A DNA stretch of 39,366 nucleotides, taken from Pirellulales bacterium. GTDB lineage: Bacteria; Planctomycetota; Planctomycetia; Pirellulales; JAICIG01. Below are positions 5,897 through 29,143 of the stretch, piece by piece. Position 1 is the first letter of the stretch; each line of letters begins with the position of its first letter. A program made the translations under genes and the position numbers. The notes below the pieces were generated by a model. That model saw only the letters and a list, made by a program, of their open reading frames with translations, did no database searches and was not told the origin of the DNA. Location: contig DATLUO010000161.1 of NCBI GenBank assembly GCA_035533075.1, positions 1-39,366 of the forward strand. Reading direction: 5' to 3'.

Positions 5897-5992
5897 CGAA
5901 GCGCGGACTCGTTGGGCCGTGCCGTTTGCGCGATGCGTTCCGCGGGCACGGTCCGAGGATCACCAGCGCGGTCAGAGCGAAGGAGCACAATC

Positions 5993-8248
5993 ATGGCAAG
6001 AACCTGGCTGGCGACAGCGCTGACGCTCGTTCTGACAGGCGCGCTTTCTAGCCGGGCTTCCAGGGCCGACGATGCGGTCGACTTCGGCCGTGACGTTCAG
6101 CCGCTGTTCAAGGCGCACTGCTATGAATGCCACGGGCCGAAGCAGCAGAAGAACGGCTTTCGGCTCGACCGGCGGCGGGATGCCCTGCGCGGCGGGACCA
6201 TCACCATGATCGGCCCCGGCCATAGTGCGGCGAGCCGGCTCTATCTCAAGCTCGTTTCAGACCAGTACGGCCAGCGGATGCCGCCGACCGGTCCGCTCGA
6301 TCCCGAGCAGCTCAACATCATCAAGCTCTGGATCGACCAGGGAGCGAAATGGCCCGATGATCTGGCCGGAGAAACCGCTGCGGCGCCTCCCGATCCGCAG
6401 GCGGCGCGGATGATGGAGCTTCTCCGCGATGGCGATCATCGGGCGCTGCAAACGATGTTGAGCGAGGATCGCCGGATCGCCAGCCTCAAAGGGCCCGGCG
6501 GTTCGACACCGCTGATGTACGCCGTGCTCTACGGCGATGCCGATGCCGTCCGGCTCCTGCTCGACAACGGCGCGGATCCCAACGTTCGCAACGAGGTCGG
6601 CGCGTCGGCGCTGATGTGGGCGGCCGACGATCTGGAAAAAACGCGATGGTTGCTCGAGCGCGGCGCCGAGGTGAATGCCCGCTCCGACGACGGACGGACC
6701 GCGCTGGCGATCGCGGCCAGCCGCTTTGGCTCCCTCGCCGTAGTCCGGCTGCTGCTCGATTCTGGCGCGGATCCATCCGTCAGATCGCCCAGCTACAAGG
6801 GGCCGTTGACTCCGCTCCGCGAGGCGGCCGACGTCGGTGATGAGGCCGTTGTGCGGTTGCTGATCGAACGCGGGGCCGACGTGAAGAGCGCGGGGCCTCT
6901 CCCACTGATCGCCGCGCTCAACGCGAATGACGCCCGCTGCGTGGACCTGCTCATGCCGTCGGCCGACCGCGCCACGCTGAGCACGGCGCTGGCGTCCCTG
7001 GGTCCGCCCAACGGCAATCCGGCGGCGTTCGGCAACGCGAAGCTGATCCAGCGACTGCTCGATGACGGTGCCGACGTCAATGCCAGGGGCCGTGACGGCC
7101 GCCGCATTCTGATGGACTTGGCCAACTCCGATAGCTTGCCCCTGGAAAGCGTCACCACGCTGCTCGAACGCGGGGCCGATACGAACACCAGGACGGAGGC
7201 GGGCCAGACCGCTCTCGACTTCGCCCTCCAGCGCGGCCAGACGCCCGTCGTGGATCTGCTCGTCAAGGCGGGTGCGAAGCCGGGGGGCGCGTCGCCGGTG
7301 CCGGTCAGCCCGCCGAAGCCGGCCGGCTCCGTGCGTGCCGCCCTGTCGCGGACGATTCCGCTCCTGCAGCGGTCCGACATCGGATTCGTGCAAAAGACGG
7401 GCTGCGTCTCCTGCCATCACAACTCGCTGACGGCGATGACCATCGCCGCGGCCCGAAGTGCCTCAGTGCCGGTGGACGATCAGGTCGCACGCGCGCAACG
7501 GGCGTCGATCGCGTCTTACATCGACGTGTGGCGCGAGCGCGCGCTTCAGGGCCTTGGCATTCCGGGCGACGCCGATACCGTCGGTTACGTGCTGATAGGC
7601 ATGGCGGCGGAGAAACATCCGCCCGATGCGGCCACCGACGCGCTGGCACGCTACGTCAAGAGCCGGCAATTGCCCGACGGTGGGTGGCGGCCCCTTGGGC
7701 ATCGGCCTCCTCTCGAATCGAGCGCCATCCAGGTCACGGCCGCCTCGCTGCGGGCGCTGCAGGTCTACGCCCCCAGAGCAAGGCGGAGCGAGTACGAGAA
7801 GTCGATCGAGCGCGCCAAGGAGTGGCTGAAGCGGGCCCGGGCCACGACGACCGAGGACCGGGCCTTTCAACTTCTCGGCCTGCGATGGGCGGGAGACGAC
7901 CAGGAGATCCTCCTACGAAAAGCCGCGAGCGACCTGCTGAGCGAGCAACGAGCCGACGGAGGGTGGGGAGAACTTCCCTCGCTCGCCAGTGATGCATACG
8001 CGACCGGGCAAGCGTTGGTGGCCCTGAAAGAGGCCGGCGCCGTCGCGGCGACCGATGCGGCCTACCAGCGGGGCGTCGAATTTCTTCTGTCGACGCAGCT
8101 CGAAGATGGATCGTGGTACGTGAGGAGCCGTTCCATACCGTTCCAGCCTTACTTCGAAAGCGGTTTTCCCCACGGACACGACCAGTGGATCTCCGCGGCG
8201 GCGACCAACTGGGCCGCCATGGCGCTGGTGGCCGCGGCCGGGCCGTGA
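5993..8248 (+). CDS. Secreted cytochrome c / ankyrin / cyclase-fold protein
   Basis: This 751-residue protein has a signal peptide (about 1-25, ending SRASRA-DD). A PSCyt1-like cytochrome c domain follows with the haem site CYECH (43-47) and a downstream MPP (QRMPPTGPL) as axial Met candidate. Six or so ankyrin repeats cover about 135-435 (for example TPLMYAVLYGDADAVRLLLDNGADPNVRN). A second CxxCH, CVSCHH (471-476), opens the C-terminal domain. That domain has repeats of the type ...LPDGGWRP, RADGGWGE and QLEDGSWYV, matching the alpha/alpha-barrel fold of squalene-hopene cyclase or prenyltransferase-like proteins, but no DXDD motif was seen. AAGGAG precedes the start. It is probably a periplasmic electron-transfer or scaffold protein; the enzymatic role is unknown. 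Confidence 0.85.
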   Translation: MARTWLATALTLVLTGALSSRASRADDAVDFGRDVQPLFKAHCYECHGPKQQKNGFRLDRRRDALRGGTITMIGPGHSAASRLYLKLVSDQYGQRMPPTGPLDPEQLNIIKLWIDQGAKWPDDLAGETAAAPPDPQAARMMELLRDGDHRALQTMLSEDRRIASLKGPGGSTPLMYAVLYGDADAVRLLLDNGADPNVRNEVGASALMWAADDLEKTRWLLERGAEVNARSDDGRTALAIAASRFGSLAVVRLLLDSGADPSVRSPSYKGPLTPLREAADVGDEAVVRLLIERGADVKSAGPLPLIAALNANDARCVDLLMPSADRATLSTALASLGPPNGNPAAFGNAKLIQRLLDDGADVNARGRDGRRILMDLANSDSLPLESVTTLLERGADTNTRTEAGQTALDFALQRGQTPVVDLLVKAGAKPGGASPVPVSPPKPAGSVRAALSRTIPLLQRSDIGFVQKTGCVSCHHNSLTAMTIAAARSASVPVDDQVARAQRASIASYIDVWRERALQGLGIPGDADTVGYVLIGMAAEKHPPDAATDALARYVKSRQLPDGGWRPLGHRPPLESSAIQVTAASLRALQVYAPRARRSEYEKSIERAKEWLKRARATTTEDRAFQLLGLRWAGDDQEILLRKAASDLLSEQRADGGWGELPSLASDAYATGQALVALKEAGAVAATDAAYQRGVEFLLSTQLEDGSWYVRSRSIPFQPYFESGFPHGHDQWISAAATNWAAMALVAAAGP

Positions 8249-8574: not shown

Positions 8575-8603
8575 TTGACGCTCTAGTGTACTATTACTAT
8601 AGT
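8575..8603 (+). promoter_or_regulatory. Promoter of GntR-slipin operon
   Basis: TTGACG (8575-8580), a 17-base spacer and TATAGT (8598-8603), each one base from consensus. The predicted start site is 8610, only five bases before the ATG at 8615, so the mRNA would have almost no leader. Confidence 0.7.
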
Positions 8604-8614: not shown

Positions 8615-9001
8615 ATGATCATCTTCTCGTTGGATCCGAAGAGCGGCGTGCCGATTTACCGGCAGATACAGGATCAGGTCCGCTTTGGGATCTCGTCGGG
8701 GAGACTGTGCCCTGGTGAACAACTGCCGACGGTGCGGGCCTTGGCCGTCGATCTCTCGGTCAACCCGAACACGGTCATCAAAGCGTACACCGAGCTTGAG
8801 CGCCAGGGAGTGTTAACGACCGAACAAGGCAGCGGCACGTTCGTCGCCCCGCAGCCCGCGGTGACGCTTGCCCCGCGGGACCAGGAGGCCAAGCTTCGCG
8901 CTTTATGCACCGAATTCTTGGGACAGGCTGCCCAATACGGCTTCGCGCCTCGCGATGTACTGAAGACGATACGCAACCTGACAGCGGAGCGACCAAAATG
9001 A
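8615..9001 (+). CDS. GntR-family regulator, YtrA subfamily
   Basis: This 128-residue protein has the GntR winged helix (about 10-75): PIYRQIQDQVRFGISSGRLCPGEQLPTVRALA, then the recognition helix SVNPNTVIKAYTELERQGVL and the wing TEQGSGTFV. Only about 45 residues follow, which is the short C-terminal tail of the YtrA subfamily with no ligand-binding FCD or UTRA domain. YtrA regulators usually control membrane-transport operons; here the partner is a slipin whose ATG overlaps the TGA stop (ATGA at 8998-9001). It is probably self-repressed through the dyad at 8583-8610. Confidence 0.9.
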   Translation: MIIFSLDPKSGVPIYRQIQDQVRFGISSGRLCPGEQLPTVRALAVDLSVNPNTVIKAYTELERQGVLTTEQGSGTFVAPQPAVTLAPRDQEAKLRALCTEFLGQAAQYGFAPRDVLKTIRNLTAERPK

Positions 9002-9975
9002 CCAGCCGCAGGGACACCGAACGCACGCTGGCCCGAGAGCACGCCGCGCGCGAACGTCGCCGAGCCAGTACGTTTCTCCTGAATTCGGTCGTGGCCACGC
9101 TGATCCTGGTTGCCCCGGCAGCCGTTCAGTTTTCCGAGGAGAAGTATAACCAGCTCACGTGGGCCGTCGCGGTCGTGGCGGCCTTGGCCGTGTTGCTGTG
9201 CGTGCGTATCGCTTTACAGTGGGATCGTGCTGTGCTGTTGCGGCTAGGGAGGTTCCACGCCCTGAAGGGGCCGGGTGTCTTCATTCTGGTGCCGTTCGTC
9301 GACCGCGTGGCCCGTTTTGTGGACATGCGCATCCGAACAACGGAATTCTTCTCGGAAAGCACGCTGACTCGCGACACCGTACCGGTAGACGTCGACGCGG
9401 TCTGCTTCTGGATGGTCTGGGATGCCCGGAAAGCGCTTCTGGAGGTCGAGAATTACTACCGGGCCATCTCGCTCTCCACGCAAACGGCGCTGCGTGACAT
9501 CATCGGCACTCACACCTTGGAAGAGATGCTGACCCAGCGGGAGGCGTTGGGCCACGCTCTGCAGGAAACGCTCGACCGCAAGACAAATCCCTGGGGCATC
9601 ACGGTCCAGTCCGTGGAAATCCGTAACGTGATCATTCCCGCCAGCTTGCAAAACGCTATGAGCAAGCAAGCCCAGGCAGAACGGGAGCGCCAGGCGCGGA
9701 TTATCTTGAGCACGGCGGAGACCGAGATCGCGGCCAATTTCGTGGAGGCGGCCCGGCCGTACCAGAACAACCCGGTGGCGGTGCATCTGCGTGCCATGAA
9801 CATGCTCTATGAGGGCCTCAAGGAGAAGGGTTCGATCGTGGTCGTCCCGTCGTCAGGCGTGGAGTCGATGAACCTGGGCGCGCTCGGCGGTCTAGCAAGC
9901 ATTAACGTGAAGAGGGCGTTGCCCGATGACGACGACCAGGCTGGGAACTCGGAGGCACGAGCCTCGTCGAGTTGA
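8998..9975 (+). CDS. SPFH-domain slipin/stomatin-like membrane protein
   Basis: This 325-residue protein has two N-terminal hydrophobic segments (about 22-40 and 50-68). An SPFH domain follows: RAVLLRLGRFHALKGPGVFILVPFVDRVARFVDMRIRTTEF, VPVDVDAVCFWMVWD, and the slipin lines TQTALRDIIGTHTLEEMLTQRE and GITVQSVEIRNVIIPASLQNAMSKQAQAERERQARII. The C-terminal coiled-coil region and the LNLG-like stretch SMNLGALGG are also usual. Slipins form membrane-bound oligomers that organise lipid domains or protect membrane proteases; an NfeD-type protease partner was not seen here. The start at 8998 overlaps the GntR stop by four bases, so translation is probably coupled. Confidence 0.88.
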   Translation: MTSRRDTERTLAREHAARERRRASTFLLNSVVATLILVAPAAVQFSEEKYNQLTWAVAVVAALAVLLCVRIALQWDRAVLLRLGRFHALKGPGVFILVPFVDRVARFVDMRIRTTEFFSESTLTRDTVPVDVDAVCFWMVWDARKALLEVENYYRAISLSTQTALRDIIGTHTLEEMLTQREALGHALQETLDRKTNPWGITVQSVEIRNVIIPASLQNAMSKQAQAERERQARIILSTAETEIAANFVEAARPYQNNPVAVHLRAMNMLYEGLKEKGSIVVVPSSGVESMNLGALGGLASINVKRALPDDDDQAGNSEARASSS

Positions 9976-10066: not shown

Positions 10067-11794
10067 ATGTCCGCGAGCGTTCCATCCGTTGACTTGACCC
10101 GGTCTGCGAGCCTTCGCCGGCATGACCTCGATGCGCTGCGCGCCTTCGCGATGCTGCTCGGCATCGTGCTGCACGCGTCGCTGTCGTTCTCCACGATCCC
10201 GTGGGTTGTGCGCGACACCCGTCAAAGCGAGCTGTACTCGGTGATCATGCAGGCCCTCCACGGTTTTCGGTTGCCGCTCTTCTTCTTGGTGAGCGGCTTG
10301 TTCACCACGATGCTCTGGCGCCGACGGGGGCTGGCGTCACTGCTTAAGCAAAGGGCCGTACGGATCCTCGTCCCCTGCCTCGTCGGCTTGGTGACCATCA
10401 TCCCGCTGCTGGATTGGGTGTCTGAGTGGGCGAGACAGCACGCGATCCCCGTCGTCGCGTCCGACGACGACTCGATCACCGCGGCTGTTCGATTGGGAGA
10501 CTCCGCCGCGCTTCGCGAACGCCTATTGGCGGGGCTGGACGTTAACCAAAGGGCCGGGACTTTTGGCGTACCTCCGCTGGGTTGGGCCGCGATGCTCGGC
10601 GACACCGCTGCGGCGCAGCTTCTGATCGACGCCGGCGCCGATGTGAGAATTACGAACCGCGACGGCTCCACGCCGTTGCACGGCGCGGCGATCTTTGGCC
10701 GCGCCGAGGTCGCGGCGCTGCTCCTCAAGCACGGCGCCAACCCCAACGCTCGCAACCGCGAAGGTCGGTCGGCTCTCGATGCCACGACGGTCGACTGGGG
10801 CACGACGCAGTTCGTTGCCAAACTGCTACAAATCCGCCTCGGCACCGAGCCCGACGTCGACGCGGGGCGCGCCGAGGTCCGGCGTTTGCTTGCACCGATC
10901 ACGCAATCGACCGGCGACACAACCCGTAGTGCGGCGGCCGCCGCGGAGAAGGGAGGCGGGATCGTTAAAGCTTACAGGCGGCTGCTCGATTCCGACCGAT
11001 TAACCGTGCAGGTCGGCGGTTCAAGCTTCAACCTTATCCGCACGCCCGTGTTCGATCACCTTTGGTTTCTCTGGTTCCTGTGCTGGCTCGTGCCGATCTT
11101 CGCGTTGCTCGCCTGGGCCGCCCAGAGGCTTCACCTCCCTCGAGTCCCGCGCGGTCTGCTCCACTCGCCCATCTGCTACCTTTGGCTTCTGCCGCTGACG
11201 TTCATTCCGCAGTGGTTCATGGGCGACGGGATTTTTGGTCCGGACACGTCGATCGGGCTCCTGCCGCTGCCGCACCTGCTCGTCTACTATGGAATCTTCT
11301 TCGGCTTCGGCGCCCTCTACTACGACACCCACGACGACGAGGGCCGGCTGGCCCGCCGTTGGTGGTTTCTTCTGCCGCTTGCGTTGATCGTCGCGCTGCC
11401 GCTGGGCCTCGTACCGCTCTTGCCGCGCGCCGTCACGGCGTTGGCGCAGGTCGTCTATGCGTGGGCGATGAGTTTTGGCATGCTGGGTCTCTTCCGCCGC
11501 GTCCTCAGGCGAGAGCGCCCGTGGGTCCGTTACGTGTCCGACTCGTCATACTGGTTGTACGTCACACACCCACCGCTTGTTATCGCCGCACAAGTGATCG
11601 TCGCACCTTGGCCCCTGCCGGCGTACGTGAAGTTCGTCCTGATCTGCAGCGTCGTGACGGCGATCCTCCTCCTGACATATCAACTTTTCGTTCGCTACAC
11701 GTGGATCGGCTTCATCCTCAATGGCCGGCGGACGCGTCCTCGTGGCGAAACTTCCCACAGTGACATCGGCGACCAAGTTCGCAGGATCGGTTGA
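10067..11794 (+). CDS. Acyltransferase-3 membrane protein with inserted ankyrin repeats
   Basis: This 575-residue polytopic protein starts with the acyltransferase-3 signature RHDLDALRAFAMLLGIVLHASLSF, in which the Arg and His are typical family residues. Two more membrane helices follow (LHGFRLPLFFLVSGLFTTM and ILVPCLVGLVTIIPLLDWV). Residues of about 131-260 are four ankyrin repeats (for example STPLHGAAIFGRAEVAALLLKHGANPNARN). Membrane helices then resume at HLWFLWFLCWLVPIF, a family-typical line, and continue to the C-terminus, including SSYWLYVTHPPLVI. Positive-inside charges (RRRGLASLLKQR between helices 2 and 3) place the ankyrin loop outside the cytoplasm. The ATG at 10067 has CAGGTG six bases upstream. 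It probably acylates an envelope glycan or lipid; the insertion is unusual. Confidence 0.85.
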   Translation: MSASVPSVDLTRSASLRRHDLDALRAFAMLLGIVLHASLSFSTIPWVVRDTRQSELYSVIMQALHGFRLPLFFLVSGLFTTMLWRRRGLASLLKQRAVRILVPCLVGLVTIIPLLDWVSEWARQHAIPVVASDDDSITAAVRLGDSAALRERLLAGLDVNQRAGTFGVPPLGWAAMLGDTAAAQLLIDAGADVRITNRDGSTPLHGAAIFGRAEVAALLLKHGANPNARNREGRSALDATTVDWGTTQFVAKLLQIRLGTEPDVDAGRAEVRRLLAPITQSTGDTTRSAAAAAEKGGGIVKAYRRLLDSDRLTVQVGGSSFNLIRTPVFDHLWFLWFLCWLVPIFALLAWAAQRLHLPRVPRGLLHSPICYLWLLPLTFIPQWFMGDGIFGPDTSIGLLPLPHLLVYYGIFFGFGALYYDTHDDEGRLARRWWFLLPLALIVALPLGLVPLLPRAVTALAQVVYAWAMSFGMLGLFRRVLRRERPWVRYVSDSSYWLYVTHPPLVIAAQVIVAPWPLPAYVKFVLICSVVTAILLLTYQLFVRYTWIGFILNGRRTRPRGETSHSDIGDQVRRIG

Positions 11795-12011: not shown

Positions 12012-12036
12012 GATGAGAGATGAGAGATGAGAGATG
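12012..12036. repeat. GATGAGA tandem repeat
   Basis: Three complete copies and a partial fourth of the 7-base unit GATGAGA lie in tandem within the gene-free stretch. Confidence 0.8.
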
Positions 12037-12332
12037 CCGATGAGGGCCAGAGAACGGGACAAGCCAGCGGGGCGCCAGAATGACGGATGACGCCGGGAGC
12101 GGATGCCAGAAAGATACCACCGCGGAACTACGAGATGATGAAATCCCTCGGGTTTTTCCCGTTATTGCAAATTTGCACGAAGGACGGAAGCTCAGGGAAC
12201 GCTACGCAAGGGGATCCATCACGGCGGAGCGTGATGCCCCATCCCGGCGCGCCTGAACCCTGAACCCGTGAATTCCCGCTCCGGCGGAGGCATGCTAGAC
12301 TGGAAACCGATCGTTCCACTCACGGCACCCGT

Positions 12333-23206: not shown

Positions 23207-23308
23207 GCTCCGAACCTCACTTCCGTGTGCCGACCTTGTTCTAACATGCGGAAGGCCACACCAAAGACGTCGTTATGGGCGAGACGCTCGCGGGCAAACA
23301 ACGACGAG

Positions 23309-23331
23309 ACGGCCTAGGAAGGCCATCCTCC
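23309..23331. repeat. Repeat family B, single arm
   Basis: ACGGCCTAGGAAGGCC followed by ATCCTCC. It is the exact reverse complement of the left arm of the full element at 36645-36705. It abuts the stop codon of the N-acetyltransferase gene. Confidence 0.75.
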
Positions 23332-24144
23332 TTATGTCTCATCGCTCAGGCAGCGGAACCGTGTGCCGGGCGGAAACTCCAGACCGAACGTCTCGGCCAA
23401 CACCGCCAACAGAGCCTCGGCGTCGACGATCTGGCGGCAGTCGCTGTTGCCGTCTTTGATCACGGTCAACTCGCGGTTGCGCAGCAGGTAGCAGGCCTCG
23501 GGCGTTTGTCTCTGCACCGCCAGCGTCTGCACGAACCGCGACGCCGGGTGCGTCGAAACGTAGTGGTTGGCCATCTCGAAGTCGAGGGCATAATGCGGCT
23601 CGAGCGTAAAGACATACAGAGGCTGCCACGCTCCTTCTCGCAACGATTCGAGCACCCAAACGCCACGCTCTTCGACCAGCCGGAAGCTCCAGCCGAACTG
23701 CCGCGAGACCCCGCCCGGCCGCAGACGAATCGGCTCGAGCAGGCCGCCGGTGCCGAAACCGACGTCCGCCAGCCAGGCCTGGCCCGCGACGTCGACCATG
23801 AGCATCATGTGCGTCCGCGGCAGCACGCGATGGGCGCCCAACCGCACGCGCGCCGCCAAGGGCGTGACGTGAAAGCCAAGCCGCTCGAGCACGGCCGCCA
23901 GCAGCGTGTTTTGCTCGAAGCAGTAGCCGCCACGCCGTGCCTTGACCAGTTTGGCTTGGATGCTGGCCAGATCGATTCCAATCGGCCGGCCGAGTTGAAT
24001 ATCGAGATTCTCGAAGGGAATGCTGGTCGCGTGCGCCAGGTGGACCGCGTCGAGCACCTCCGGCGTCGCCTGGCGCGGTCCGGTGTAGCCTATACGGCGA
24101 AAATAGGCGTCGAGATCGAGAGCGGCTGCGGGGAGATCCGTCAT
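23332..24144 (-). CDS. Arylamine N-acetyltransferase
   Basis: This 270-residue NAT has the normal family length. The catalytic triad is complete: Cys75 in RRGGYCFEQN, His112 in RTHMMLMV and Asp127 in WLADVGFG. IPFENLDI near residue 42 is another family line. It transfers acetyl groups from acetyl-CoA to arylamines or hydrazines in the cytoplasm; the natural substrate is unknown. The start at 24144 is favoured because a perfect TATAAT (24157-24152 on the minus strand) would begin transcription at about 24145; the ATG at 24153 overlaps that -10 box. A single family B repeat arm lies immediately after the stop. Confidence 0.92.
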   Translation of the reverse strand: MTDLPAAALDLDAYFRRIGYTGPRQATPEVLDAVHLAHATSIPFENLDIQLGRPIGIDLASIQAKLVKARRGGYCFEQNTLLAAVLERLGFHVTPLAARVRLGAHRVLPRTHMMLMVDVAGQAWLADVGFGTGGLLEPIRLRPGGVSRQFGWSFRLVEERGVWVLESLREGAWQPLYVFTLEPHYALDFEMANHYVSTHPASRFVQTLAVQRQTPEACYLLRNRELTVIKDGNSDCRQIVDAEALLAVLAETFGLEFPPGTRFRCLSDET

Positions 24145-24151
24145 GAGTCGC

Positions 24152-24157
24152 ATTATA
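24152..24157 (-). promoter_or_regulatory. -10 element of the NAT gene (leaderless)
   Basis: A perfect TATAAT on the minus strand, with predicted transcription start at 24145, one base before the ATG at 24144. No good -35 element was seen at 16-18 bases. Confidence 0.45.
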
Positions 24158-24376
24158 CCGTAAGGTGGCACCGGCGAGCGGCGACATACACCACCGAACT
24201 TGCGCTTCGGGGAAACTTTAACGGTTTCAGCGATCGTGGCGGGGGGGCCGGTTGATCTCACAAGCAGCGGTTCTGCTGCCGATGCCAATTGCTAGGTTTT
24301 CGACGCCGCGCCGGATCGTACCGGCGCCGAAGCACCATGCCGCGTGAAACCACCCGCGTTTGAGGAAGCGTATCCC

Positions 24377-26467
24377 ATGTCATCCAGCAAGGTCCACCGC
24401 CTGTTGCTTGCTTTGGCGTTCTGCGCCGTGGGGGAAGGAGTCGCATCGGCGATCGACCTCGCGTCCGGCCCAGAGGCTCCGGTCAGTATGGCGGCCCGGC
24501 CGCGCATTGCCCAGACTGCTCAACCTGCCACAAGGCCGGCCTCGTTGCAGGTCGGTTCGGCGGCTCCGGGTGCTTTGCCCGGCGCTTCGCCCGCCACGCT
24601 CTGGAAGTTTATGGGTATCCCGCAGGGGATACGAAAGATGCAGGGCGCCACCCGCAATCGCAACGGCAACAGGCCCGGCAGGGAGCCCAAGCCGCCCTTG
24701 AAGGCGATCGCCGACCCGGCGAACCTCGATCCGGGCAACGGACCGGCCATCAACAAGGCGGCCGAGATCAAACAAAAAGAAGACTTGGCGCCGCAGAAGA
24801 TCAAGGCCCTGAAATATCTGGCCACCATCGGCTGCGGCTGCTATCCGGGCGTGGAAGAGGCCCTTGCCAAATCGTTGAAGTTCGGCGACGAATGTACGGA
24901 AGAGGTGCGCTACGAGGCCGCCCTGGCAATCCAAGAGGCGGCCGAGAGCAACTGCGCCAAGTGCGGTAAATCGTGTTGCTGCACGGTGGAAATGATGCAG
25001 TTGCTCAACGACGTGGCCACGGCACGCGATGCCGACGGTTGCTTCCTTGAGCCGTCGGCGCGGGTCCGCGAGGCCGCCTGCCAGGCGTTGTTGGCCTGCC
25101 GGCGACGCGTGCCCGTCTATCCGGCCCCACCCGTCGTTCCGGTCGATGGCGGCGAGATAATTCCACGAGAGCCATTGCCGGGCGAAGTCGTTCCCAAAGA
25201 GTCTTCGGCGCAGTCGGACAAGCGTGTCCGGCCGAACGAGGCCAATCACCTGATGAACGACGTTCTTGGCGTGGCGAGCGATGGTGGTCGCCAGCCGTCA
25301 AACGACCCGGGGACTGCCGCATCGACGGTGGCCACGCGGAAATCGGTGGTCGGACAAGAAACCAGCGACGCCGCGCGGACCGCGGCCTCTCGCATGGTGT
25401 TGATCGGCTCCATCATGGCCGTCGATGTGAAGACCTCGACGGTCGACCTGGAGTTCCAGGGACGCCGGCAGCCGACCGTGGGGAGCCAATTCAGCGTCCA
25501 TCATGATTACGCCTTGTCGAGCACCTACTTGGGCCGCGTCGAGGTGGTCTACCTGGCCAGAAACGGTCGCGCGATCGCCAAGCCCGTCGGCCGCCTCGAC
25601 TTTGCCAAACTCGGCAAGGGCGACCGCGTAACGGGACGGATTACCGTCGGCGACGACGAGGAACGGAGCACTTCGCCGGCGTCGCACGCGGTTCGCTCCA
25701 AAGCCGGCCGCGCTGGCGCCGCTCCGCCGCGAGGAGACGGCGTGCCACAGCCCCCGGCCAGATCGGCCAACGACGCGACCACTGCGGCGCCCTCCGCGCC
25801 GGCCCTGCCCGCCGGCGTCACACGCACGAACGCGGTCCCCGCCAAGGCACCCAACAGCGCCAAGAGTTTTCACGACGTGGCCGCTCCAAAGAAAGTCGTG
25901 ATTGCAGAAAAGGCCACTGCTGGGCAAAAGACCGCCGTGGCGGCTCCCCAAGCCAAGCCCGTTCTGGCTTCGAAGGACGCGGAAATCGGCACGCGGATTT
26001 CCGATGCCATTTCGCCCTGGAAGAAGGCGGCGCCGGCAAAAACCGACCGAGTGGACAACAACCCGTGGAAGAACTTCGTGCCGGCGAAGGCGAGCAAGAT
26101 TGACGACAGCCTGGCGGACTACGCCATGTGGCAGTCGGAGCAGCCTCCGGCAAAGATGGGCAAGCTCGGCAGCGGCATCGCCGACAAGACGGCCCAATGG
26201 AAAAACGCCTTGTTCGGCAGAATCCGGGGCGGCGAGAAACGAGTTGCCGAGGGCGGCGGTCCGGTCAAGAACGTCTCACCCGTCAAGCCGGATGACCGCA
26301 AACAGCAGGTGGCGCACCGCACGTCAGCCTCGCCGATTTCGAGCACCTGGCCGCGGTTGACGAAACCGGCGGGTGTGGGCCTCCATCCCTCGCCGGTCGC
26401 GCCGGCGTCTGCCTCGACCGACTCCGACTCATCGTCGGTGGCGGGCATCGTGCTGCTGGAAGAATAG
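24377..26467 (+). CDS. Exported planctomycete protein with Cys-rich helical repeat region
   Basis: This protein of about 696 residues has a signal peptide (KVHRLLLALAFCAVGEGVASA). Residues of about 130-250 are HEAT-like helices rich in Cys (IGCGCYPGVEEALAKSL, ESNCAKCGKSCCCTVEMM, REAACQALLACRRR). A beta-rich segment at about 340-425 follows (LIGSIMAVDVKTSTVDLEFQG, VHHDYALSSTYLGRVEVVYL, AKLGKGDRVTGRI). The C-terminal half is Ala/Pro/Lys-rich and includes two related units, SPWKKAAPAK and NPWKNFVPAK. I recognise the overall type from other planctomycetes but know no function. The start at 24377 has GAGGA upstream; GTG at 24344 is an in-frame alternative. Confidence 0.75.
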   Translation: MSSSKVHRLLLALAFCAVGEGVASAIDLASGPEAPVSMAARPRIAQTAQPATRPASLQVGSAAPGALPGASPATLWKFMGIPQGIRKMQGATRNRNGNRPGREPKPPLKAIADPANLDPGNGPAINKAAEIKQKEDLAPQKIKALKYLATIGCGCYPGVEEALAKSLKFGDECTEEVRYEAALAIQEAAESNCAKCGKSCCCTVEMMQLLNDVATARDADGCFLEPSARVREAACQALLACRRRVPVYPAPPVVPVDGGEIIPREPLPGEVVPKESSAQSDKRVRPNEANHLMNDVLGVASDGGRQPSNDPGTAASTVATRKSVVGQETSDAARTAASRMVLIGSIMAVDVKTSTVDLEFQGRRQPTVGSQFSVHHDYALSSTYLGRVEVVYLARNGRAIAKPVGRLDFAKLGKGDRVTGRITVGDDEERSTSPASHAVRSKAGRAGAAPPRGDGVPQPPARSANDATTAAPSAPALPAGVTRTNAVPAKAPNSAKSFHDVAAPKKVVIAEKATAGQKTAVAAPQAKPVLASKDAEIGTRISDAISPWKKAAPAKTDRVDNNPWKNFVPAKASKIDDSLADYAMWQSEQPPAKMGKLGSGIADKTAQWKNALFGRIRGGEKRVAEGGGPVKNVSPVKPDDRKQQVAHRTSASPISSTWPRLTKPAGVGLHPSPVAPASASTDSDSSSVAGIVLLEE

Positions 26468-26486
26468 ACGCTACGACAAGGCCGAA

Positions 26487-27386
26487 CTAGGCAAAAGCTG
26501 CCCGCAGCTCGTCGATGTGCCGCGGGCAAGCTTGCCGCGGGTTTTCACGCTCTTCGTATTCCAAGACAATGTAACCGCGGTATCCGCTGTCGGTCAGGAT
26601 CTTGGCCAGGCGGCGAAAATCGGCCGGCTCCTTCTTGCCGCCGCCGGGATTCATCGACACCTTCACCTGCACGTTTACGGCATAAGGAGCGATCCGGGCC
26701 AGATCGGCATAGGGGTCGGCCGAATGGAAGTTGCCCGTGTCGAGGTTGATGGCAAACCAGGGGCTCTTCACATCACCGATCAGCCGCATCAGGCCGTCGA
26801 TGGTGGTGGTCAGCCCGCCGTGATTTTCCAAGGCCAGAAAAACGCCGTGCTCGCCCGCGTACTGGCAGCACTCTTCGATTCCCTCCACGGCCAGCCGGTG
26901 CGCCTCCTGTTCCGATTGTCCTGACCGGGCCTGGCCCGAGAAGATGCGAATCACCGGTGCGCCGAGAACCTCGGCTCGATCGACCCACTGCTTGACCTTG
27001 GCGATCTGCGTTTTTCGTTCGTCGCCGGGCGGGTGGCAGAAGTCGTTGCCCACGGCCGTGCCCGAGATGTCGAGCCCCAGAAGAAACGTCTGGTGCTTGA
27101 GCTGTCGCAGGTATTCGGGCGTCGGTTCGGCAGGAAAGTAGTAGGAGGTCAGCTCGGTCCCTTCGAGCCCCATCTTGGCGCAGTCGTCGATGAAGTCGGC
27201 CAGCGTCAGTTTGGGCGGCTTGCCGGTGAGCAGCTCGCGGTAGCTATACGCCGCCAGGCTGAATTTGAACTTGGGCTTGTCGGTGCGGCGGACGGGTTCG
27301 ATGGCCGCAAGAGAGCGGCCAAACACCGTAGTGGCAGACGCCGCGGCAGCCAAAAGGAGACTGCGCCTGGTGGAAAAAGAAGACAT
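26487..27386 (-). CDS. Tat-exported sugar phosphate isomerase/epimerase-like TIM barrel
   Basis: This 299-residue protein begins with a twin-arginine signal (FSTRRSLLLAAAASATTV). The rest is a xylose isomerase-like TIM barrel: TLADFIDDCAKMGLEGTELT, IFSGQARSGQSE, HGVFLALENHGGLTTTIDGLMRLI, FAINLDTGNFHSADPY and GYIVLEYEERENP, where Glu and His residues match metal ligands of the family. It probably acts on a sugar in the periplasm. GAGG lies just upstream of the start at 27386. It is the last gene of a minus-strand operon, 15 bases after the HTTM-like gene. Confidence 0.87.
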   Translation of the reverse strand: MSSFSTRRSLLLAAAASATTVFGRSLAAIEPVRRTDKPKFKFSLAAYSYRELLTGKPPKLTLADFIDDCAKMGLEGTELTSYYFPAEPTPEYLRQLKHQTFLLGLDISGTAVGNDFCHPPGDERKTQIAKVKQWVDRAEVLGAPVIRIFSGQARSGQSEQEAHRLAVEGIEECCQYAGEHGVFLALENHGGLTTTIDGLMRLIGDVKSPWFAINLDTGNFHSADPYADLARIAPYAVNVQVKVSMNPGGGKKEPADFRRLAKILTDSGYRGYIVLEYEERENPRQACPRHIDELRAAFA

Positions 27387-27401
27387 GGTTCGACCTCGGT
27401 G

Positions 27402-28466
27402 TTAGGCCGCCGCTTTTGCCGGCAGCGCTGCTTCGTGGGTGCGTCGCCTGGAAACCACCGCTCGCAACTTTTCAGGAGCCACAAACGCCAGGCTGGCAAC
27501 GATCATCATAACCGCGAATGGAATGTTTCCAAGAATGGGCGCCAGCAGCGCCCACATGACGGCATTGATTCCCAGCATGAGCGGCCTTGCCAGGCGGTTC
27601 CAGACAAAGATCGGGAACGCCGCCTGCCAGAACATGACGGCATAACTCCCGGCGTGGACGAGCAAGGGCCACTGGTGCAGCGCCGTCAAGTCGAGCATCC
27701 GCTGTTCCGTTCGGGCGATCAAGTACCACATGCCCATGCCGCTCCACCAGACGTTGTCGCCCTGACCGTGGCCGCCCAGCTTTCCGACCGCCATCATGGC
27801 GTAGACCAGCGTCAAATGGACCTGAATGAGCCGCAAGGAAACGGTGGCCCACGTGCTGGACCTGGCGACAAGCGGCCCGATGGAACCGGCGGGCAACGAC
27901 CCCGGAGTACGTCGCTCTTTGCGCCAGCGGTCGACAGAGCAGGCGCTGCCCGATGGTCCAAGGCAAAGATACAACAGCACGAATGCCATGAGCGGCTCGA
28001 CCTGCGACGTCAGCATCGGCCCGCGGTGCAGGTAGGAGAGCACCACGACCAGCGTGGCAATCGACGAGACCGGAGTAAAAACTCCGCAAGTGAAAAGAGC
28101 CACGGCCGCCATGCCCGCCAAGTGAGCCGCCAGCAGACCGCCGGGCGACCGAACGTGGTCCAGGTAAGAGAAGCGGTATTCGCGGGGCATCGCTTCGCGA
28201 ACTTGTTCGGGCGCGGTCTGCCGGTTGCCGTCGCGCGTCGGCTCTTCCAACTGGCGAAGCGTGCCGAGCGGTACCAGTCCATGCGCACCGAAATAGCGGT
28301 CGAGATCCGGCGTGAACGTGGCCAGCCAATAAAGAGCGATCAGACCCACGCCGATGCGCAAGCCACCCAACGCGATAGGATCGCTGGGCGCAAACCAGAA
28401 CCGGGTCCAGCCACGGCCGCATTCCGTCGTCAGCCTCTTGAAATAACCTTCCGACATGGACGTCAC
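27402..28466 (-). CDS. HTTM-like polytopic membrane protein
   Basis: This 354-residue protein has about seven or eight membrane helices and resembles the HTTM domain of vitamin K-dependent carboxylase-like proteins. Typical lines are LGGLRIGVGLIALYWLATFTPDLDRYFGAHGLVPL near the N-terminus, LLYLCLGPSGSACSVDRW, and LRLIQVHLTLVYAMMAVGKLGG with WWSGMGMWYLI. Bacterial HTTM proteins are poorly characterised; carboxylase activity is not established. The GTG start at 28466 overlaps the TGA of the upstream gene (GTGA); ATG at 28457 has GGAAAG upstream and is an alternative. Confidence 0.82.
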   Translation of the reverse strand: MTSMSEGYFKRLTTECGRGWTRFWFAPSDPIALGGLRIGVGLIALYWLATFTPDLDRYFGAHGLVPLGTLRQLEEPTRDGNRQTAPEQVREAMPREYRFSYLDHVRSPGGLLAAHLAGMAAVALFTCGVFTPVSSIATLVVVLSYLHRGPMLTSQVEPLMAFVLLYLCLGPSGSACSVDRWRKERRTPGSLPAGSIGPLVARSSTWATVSLRLIQVHLTLVYAMMAVGKLGGHGQGDNVWWSGMGMWYLIARTEQRMLDLTALHQWPLLVHAGSYAVMFWQAAFPIFVWNRLARPLMLGINAVMWALLAPILGNIPFAVMMIVASLAFVAPEKLRAVVSRRRTHEAALPAKAAA

Positions 28467-29143
28467 TTTCCGCCCTTGTTGATTGCGGCAGGCGCCACTT
28501 CGGCGGCGGCCTCCGACTTCAGAAGCTGCACTTGGCCCCCAACGACGATGATGCGCGCCTCATAGACCTGCGAATAGTAACGGCTTTTGTCGTAGGGATC
28601 GCGTTCGCCGGCATCGCTCGACGAAGGCGCGGTAATCGGTTGTTGGAAGTGCCGCCGCAGGCGAAGGGTGCCGCCTTTGGCCCCGTGCTCGGCCACGAAG
28701 TGCGACGCGATGGCCTGCGGCAAAAGGCTCTCGACCGCTCGGAAATTCTCGCCGGTCAAATCGGCGGCGGTCTCAGCCAGCCGTGCGTCGCGTCGCCAAC
28801 GCTGTCGCGGCGCCAGTGTGGAGGCCGGCAGGCTGAAGCTTTGCTCCGATCCGTCCGAGAGCTTCAAATCGACCTCGGCGACCACGTCCGTGTCTTCGGT
28901 CATGCCGAACGTCAGGCCGTAAAGCGGCACGTATGATTGGTCCAGCGCCAGGTATTCCAGGTAGGGCTTGACGAACGGCACGCGACGCAGCCGCAGGGCC
29001 AGCGGCGAGGGATTCCAATTTGACAGCACGGCCACGCCCAACGCGAACAGATGCAAAAAGATGAGGAAGCTGACCAGCGTCCGCTTCCATTCCGCGGGCA
29101 AGGATGCTTCCTTTTCGGTCGCTGCCACGTCGCTCGTTTGCAT
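28463..29143 (-). CDS. Single-pass membrane partner of the HTTM-like protein
   Basis: This 226-residue protein has one membrane helix (LVSFLIFLHLFALGVAVLSNW, about 23-43). An extracytoplasmic beta-rich domain follows (YVPLYGLTFGMTEDTDVVAEVDLKLSDG, RQRWRRDARLAETAADLTGE, SRYYSQVYEARIIVV). The family has no function I can name. It overlaps the HTTM-like gene by four bases and is the first gene of the operon, so the two probably form a complex. The strong terminator at 29181-29214 insulates it from the upstream gene. Confidence 0.75.
   Translation of the reverse strand: MQTSDVAATEKEASLPAEWKRTLVSFLIFLHLFALGVAVLSNWNPSPLALRLRRVPFVKPYLEYLALDQSYVPLYGLTFGMTEDTDVVAEVDLKLSDGSEQSFSLPASTLAPRQRWRRDARLAETAADLTGENFRAVESLLPQAIASHFVAEHGAKGGTLRLRRHFQQPITAPSSSDAGERDPYDKSRYYSQVYEARIIVVGGQVQLLKSEAAAEVAPAAINKGGK

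Follow-up and report, generated by a model that had tools for sequence, protein, structure and literature searches.

The locus examined here raises the question of why an acyltransferase-3 (AT3) protein should carry an ankyrin domain among its membrane helices, and what that domain might do there. The gene lies in the window (the whole stretch of 39,366 nucleotides that was analysed) and is listed with its parts and upstream neighbors in Table 1; its product is referred to below as Ank-AT3. The open reading frame is intact from an ATG start to a TGA stop, and it is the sole AT3 gene found in its own genome (8.5 Mb, 99% complete). A Pfam scan matched Acyl_transf_3 (PF01757) in two stretches (3.5e-32; 112 bits against a gathering score of 31) and Ank_2 at residues 140-230 (2.5e-13; 50.8 bits against a gathering score of 27.3). 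In a genome-level profile search, the two AT3 halves covered PF01757 positions 2-112 and 113-324, with 67.1 and 50.2 bits, respectively, which places the insert between the consecutive profile positions 112 and 113.

Table 1. Ank-AT3, its component parts and the two genes upstream of it in the window
Feature	Position	Strand	Description and basis
GntR-type regulator gene	8615..9001	+	PF00392; sigma-70-like promoter at 8575-8603; upstream, possible operon head
SPFH/band-7 membrane protein gene	8998..9975	+	PF01145; upstream, stops some 90 bases short of the acyltransferase gene
Ank-AT3 gene	10067..11794	+	575-aa AT3 protein with inserted ankyrin domain; ORF, Pfam, relatives
First AT3 part, residues 19-133	10121..10465	+	TM1-TM3; D22xxR25x10H36, F72xxxxG77, R96xxR99; PF01757 positions 2-112, invariant columns
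Ankyrin domain, residues 132-281	10460..10909	+	Three canonical repeats, degenerate fourth, long C-cap helix with conserved G267-R268; model, 4ANK superposition, conservation
Variable linker to membrane, residues 282-325	10910..11041	+	Weakly conserved, length varies; pLDDT 56-67 at residues 281-300
Second AT3 part	11024..11692	+	HLWFLWFL motif, TM4-TM10; PF01757 match 11024-11671; TM helices to residue 542

The catalytic signature of the family was examined across 76 aligned sequences. The residues of the DxxRx10H motif in TM1 (D22, R25 and H36), of FxxxxG in TM2 (F72 and G77) and the first arginine of RxxR in TM3 (R96) were invariant, and R99 was retained in at least 90% of the sequences; all three motifs are features of AT3/TmAT proteins (PMC9833829, PMC12423673). 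Judged by profile and signature residues, Ank-AT3 is a member of the AT3/TmAT superfamily. Since these residues are intact, it looks enzymatically competent, and it probably moves acyl groups out of the cell.

An AlphaFold2 model built from the 76-row alignment reached a mean pLDDT of 90.2 and a pTM of 0.86, with the ankyrin blocks mostly at 85-98, and contains ten membrane helices. Residues 132-281 superposed on the designed four-repeat ankyrin protein 4ANK (1n0r) over all 126 residues (Z 19.7, rmsd 1.9), and in the model a long capping helix (261-281) comes after the degenerate fourth repeat. A sequence-only reading of this DNA had placed ankyrin repeats between helices TM3 and TM4 of an AT3 protein, which the split profile, the Ank_2 match and the 4ANK-like model bear out. 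Its count of four repeats is right in structural terms, as three recognizable repeats and the degenerate fourth with its capping helix; of the proposed limits, residues 131-260 or so, the end was set too early, as the domain runs to about residue 281.

A fold search with the whole model returned a list filled by ankyrin chains, which was uninformative on the membrane half. When the TM4-TM10 half was folded alone, HGSNAT supplied the top structural rows at a modest Z of 6.2 (rmsd 5.0, 196 residues), and GWT1 followed nearby (Z 4.7). Both are TmAT members with solved structures and show low sequence identity to Ank-AT3, and HGSNAT is not known to have an ankyrin domain. Foldseek on the same half yielded no significant match (E above 1).

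The sidedness of the insert was assessed from charge and from published homologs. Lysine plus arginine averaged 14.8 per protein in the cytoplasmic loops versus 2.8 in the periplasmic loops, and the bias ran in the same direction in each of the 76 members. Published work on AT3 proteins puts the TM3-TM4 loop in the periplasm or has it re-enter the membrane; it is their longest periplasmic loop, as in OafB and Oac, and models and topology studies show it as partly re-entrant and closing off the acyl-CoA cavity from above (PMC9833829). Charge bias and published homologs together predict an N-terminus inside and an extracytoplasmic ankyrin loop for Ank-AT3, which would put the insert on the acceptor side. 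The positive-inside argument already made from the sequence, that the ankyrin domain lies outside the cytoplasm, is thereby strengthened. Its companion premise that this loop is normally short proved mistaken for OafB and Oac, although the loop is indeed short, at approximately 30-40 residues, in the ankyrin-free AT3 relatives compared. The distance from DxxR to HxWFL is 134-141 residues in ankyrin-free relatives versus 309 here, an insert of about 174.

A search of a genome collection recovered 196 relatives of Ank-AT3, which are numbered here with the prefix L. The best 80 of these, examined for identity, showed 39-51% over nearly the full length, ankyrin included, and both domains occupied the same slot in all 76 that were aligned. 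According to record titles, their owners belong to Planctomycetota, Verrucomicrobiota, Latescibacterota, Gemmatimonadota, Armatimonadota and Acidobacteriota, mostly as metagenome-assembled genomes. Among the owners are Thalassoglobus neptunius, Aquisphaera insulae and Rhodopirellula baltica (L022, L013 and L042). The gene was present in 18 of the 392 Planctomycetota genomes sampled, and of those listed this genome is the single one from its own order; such patchy spread suggests transfer or loss.

In a quick tree of 76 ankyrin-bearing and 11 distant ankyrin-free rows, a single branch (SH-aLRT 90) separated the ankyrin-bearing proteins from the rest. With the ankyrin-free AT3 proteins on separate branches, a single ancient insertion is the simplest history, and the tree fits one entry of the ankyrin domain into an AT3 ancestor. 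Pairwise identities of the two domains co-vary (Mantel r 0.75; none of 999 permutations as high), with the ankyrin domain evolving faster (mean pairwise identity 35% versus 53% for AT3). Across 17 close pairs, dN/dS ranged from 0.04 to 0.47 for ankyrin and from 0.07 to 0.21 for AT3; by this measure, purifying selection is maintaining both domains, with ankyrin slightly less constrained. We also considered whether the ankyrin domain had been copied from the ankyrin gene at 5912-8248 or from elsewhere in the genome. This origin was rejected: the best local identities were 32-46% and covered pieces of the domain alone, as against 37-47% over the whole domain with the relatives compared, so that inheritance along with the rest of the family explains the domain better.

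Several known systems resemble Ank-AT3 in part. The AT3/TmAT superfamily (OafB, Oac, OatA; PF01757) shares its signature residues, ten helices and periplasmic TM3-TM4 loop. Known bacterial AT3 carbohydrate acetyltransferases either consist of AT3 alone or have an additional extracytoplasmic domain, frequently SGNH, joined on behind an 11th helix (PMC7448272). Unlike the AT3-SGNH acetyltransferases, Ank-AT3 has ankyrin as its extra domain, placed within the helix order; it ends 33 residues past TM10, and no Pfam match to an SGNH domain was found after an 11th helix. By sequence, the nearest curated family is the OpgC/MdoC glucan succinyltransferase (NCBIfam NF003014), from which it differs by the ankyrin insert. 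An OpgC identity was tried and rejected, because the score of 119 bits is far under the NCBIfam cut-off of 338 and mdoG (PF04349) had no match in the 99% complete genome, in a search whose E. coli control was positive.

Nothing relevant on an AT3-with-ankyrin architecture was present in the literature searched, including an AT3 review that makes no mention of ankyrin (PMC9558356); novelty is relative to that literature. Ank-AT3 is accordingly a known kind of AT3 protein in an ankyrin-in-loop variant for which no characterized counterpart was found in that literature, consistent with the earlier impression that this was not a characterized system.

A functional parallel is offered by zDHHC17/HIP14 and zDHHC13, which like Ank-AT3 are membrane acyltransferases (S-acyltransferases in their case) with an ankyrin domain. 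In these eukaryotic enzymes the ankyrin domain is N-terminal and cytoplasmic, whereas in Ank-AT3 it would be an internal, extracytoplasmic insert on the opposite side of the membrane. Their catalytic domain is unrelated to that of Ank-AT3, in which the Pfam scan matched no DHHC domain. The ankyrin domains of zDHHC17/13 bind peptide motifs in interacting proteins (PMC4571948). By analogy, Ank-AT3 probably works most like zDHHC17/13 without being a member of that family.

The reading that we favor, at a probability of roughly 0.55, is that Ank-AT3 would be an acyltransferase of the membrane whose ankyrin domain serves, outside the cytoplasm, as a docking site for a protein, whether partner or substrate. 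AT3 proteins take the acyl group of cytoplasmic acyl-CoA and pass it to an external acceptor (PMC9833829). On the strength of the family and the intact signature residues, the ten AT3 helices would hold cytoplasmic acyl-CoA within a pore in the membrane, from which its acyl group would be transferred to an acceptor on the outer face. In the subfamily ancestor, a four-repeat ankyrin module would have been inserted into the TM3-TM4 loop in the periplasm, next to the active site on its acceptor side. Tethered at both ends, the domain most probably docks an extracytoplasmic protein, either the acylated substrate or a presenting partner, and such docking would target the acylation.

Docking is favored by conserved ankyrin positions outside the scaffold, by duplicated modules, by ankyrin-only neighbors and by the zDHHC17/13 precedent. 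The conserved positions are 209 (mostly Phe, 83%), R212 (66%), D243, T247, G267 and R268, which might form a contact surface for either a partner or the AT3 body. In L095, L096 and L097, the slot holds two tandem copies of the entire ankyrin module. Against docking count the faster evolution of the ankyrin domain relative to AT3 and the pattern of gene neighborhoods, in which recurrent neighbors are confined to subsets of relatives and are absent beside this gene.

Neighbor clustering detected no gene cluster common to all relatives of Ank-AT3; neighbors were shared within subsets. An ECF-sigma and/or Ser/Thr-kinase gene adjoins Ank-AT3 in about a quarter of relatives. Of 79 loci, 18 had a same-strand kinase gene, identified by phmmer, at position -1, +1 or +2, often with Sigma70_ECF alongside. 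Kinase genes made up 18 of 213 neighboring genes, compared with 4 of 327 genes lying farther away (Fisher p 5.5e-5), a p-value that is overstated because several loci are close kin, leaving perhaps half a dozen independent cases. ECF sigma factor and Ser/Thr kinase genes adjoin Ank-AT3 on the same strand in L041, L043, L051, L060, L061, L063, L067, L075, L083 and L086; depending on the lineage, they lie upstream or downstream of it. Literature on the ECF sigma factor and Ser/Thr kinase link yielded general papers alone.

An exported YncE-like beta-propeller/cytochrome-type protein directly adjoins Ank-AT3 in seven relatives (L010, L033, L036, L076, L080, L084 and L088), which makes these proteins candidate partners of the ankyrin domain. 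The L010 beta-propeller protein also has a weak di-haem peroxidase match. At L045:1331-7689, three tandem Ank-AT3 genes follow the gene of an ankyrin-only protein, which begins with a signal-like N-terminus and has the same repeat-plus-tail module twice. An ankyrin-only gene overlaps the start of Ank-AT3 in L072 and L088. None of these partners (ECF sigma/kinase, beta-propeller or ankyrin-only) lies beside the Ank-AT3 gene of this window.

The main rival, which we regard as unlikely, dispenses with a partner: held by both ends of the TM3-TM4 loop, the ankyrin domain would move or stiffen the cavity plug and so control access. Published models place the re-entrant loop over the acyl-CoA cavity, with a plug in OafB (PMC9833829), and the pTM of the full model (0.86) hints at a fixed placement of the ankyrin domain on the membrane part. 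The linker at 282-325, however, is variable, is partly missing in many relatives and starts at low confidence, which would make it a poor stiff lever; duplicated ankyrin modules are also tolerated.

Rather improbable is a bacterial extracytoplasmic protein acyltransferase in which the ankyrin domain would catch exported proteins (for example, the beta-propeller/cytochrome-type proteins of the seven relatives), the AT3 pore would acylate them with cytoplasmic acyl-CoA, and some lineages would place the system under ECF-sigma/Ser-Thr-kinase control. Known ankyrin ligands are mainly proteins, which counts against binding of a glycan or lipid acceptor by the ankyrin domain itself, and no carbohydrate-binding feature was seen in that domain. 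We hold such binding to be less probable again, even though most acceptors known for bacterial AT3 proteins are carbohydrates (PMC9558356) and the TM3-TM4 loop is predicted on the acceptor side.

That the insert is cytoplasmic and binds a cytoplasmic regulator, such as the linked Ser/Thr kinase, is very improbable, as it would invert the AT3 topology against both the charge bias in 76 of 76 members and the published topology; the kinase genes adjacent in about a quarter of relatives would suit it, as would the cytoplasmic location of most known ankyrin domains. For an assembly chimera or dead gene, including the two proteins fused by misassembly that the sequence-only reading had allowed for, nothing was found in favor, and the intact frame, the shared architecture of 76 of 76 relatives, purifying selection and full-length relatives leave it a negligible chance; the observation is confirmed as neither chance nor chimera.

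Ank-AT3 would be a case of an ankyrin domain at work on the outside of a bacterial membrane, within a helix bundle instead of at an end. The protein bears on acceptor choice by AT3 enzymes, and with a known binding scaffold built into the loop beside the pore, the ankyrin domain alone could serve as bait for both partner and acceptor.

In the window itself, the end of the GntR gene meets the start of the SPFH/band-7 gene (ATG about 8998). These two genes form a possible operon that perhaps includes the acyltransferase; neither family recurred beside the Ank-AT3 genes of relatives in the neighbor clustering. Further upstream, the product of the gene at 5912-8248 (+) combines a planctomycete cytochrome c domain (PSCyt1) with a long array of ankyrin repeats and, at its C-terminus, a squalene-hopene-cyclase-like repeat. 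Being a c-type cytochrome, it is predicted to be exported and would then be a second extracytoplasmic ankyrin protein of the window. Three successive long ORFs (326, 707 and 510 aa) without a Pfam match at 0.001 occupy 23275-28565 (+), and the gap of about 540 bases downstream of the acyltransferase holds a short tandem repeat of gatgaga units at 12012-12040.
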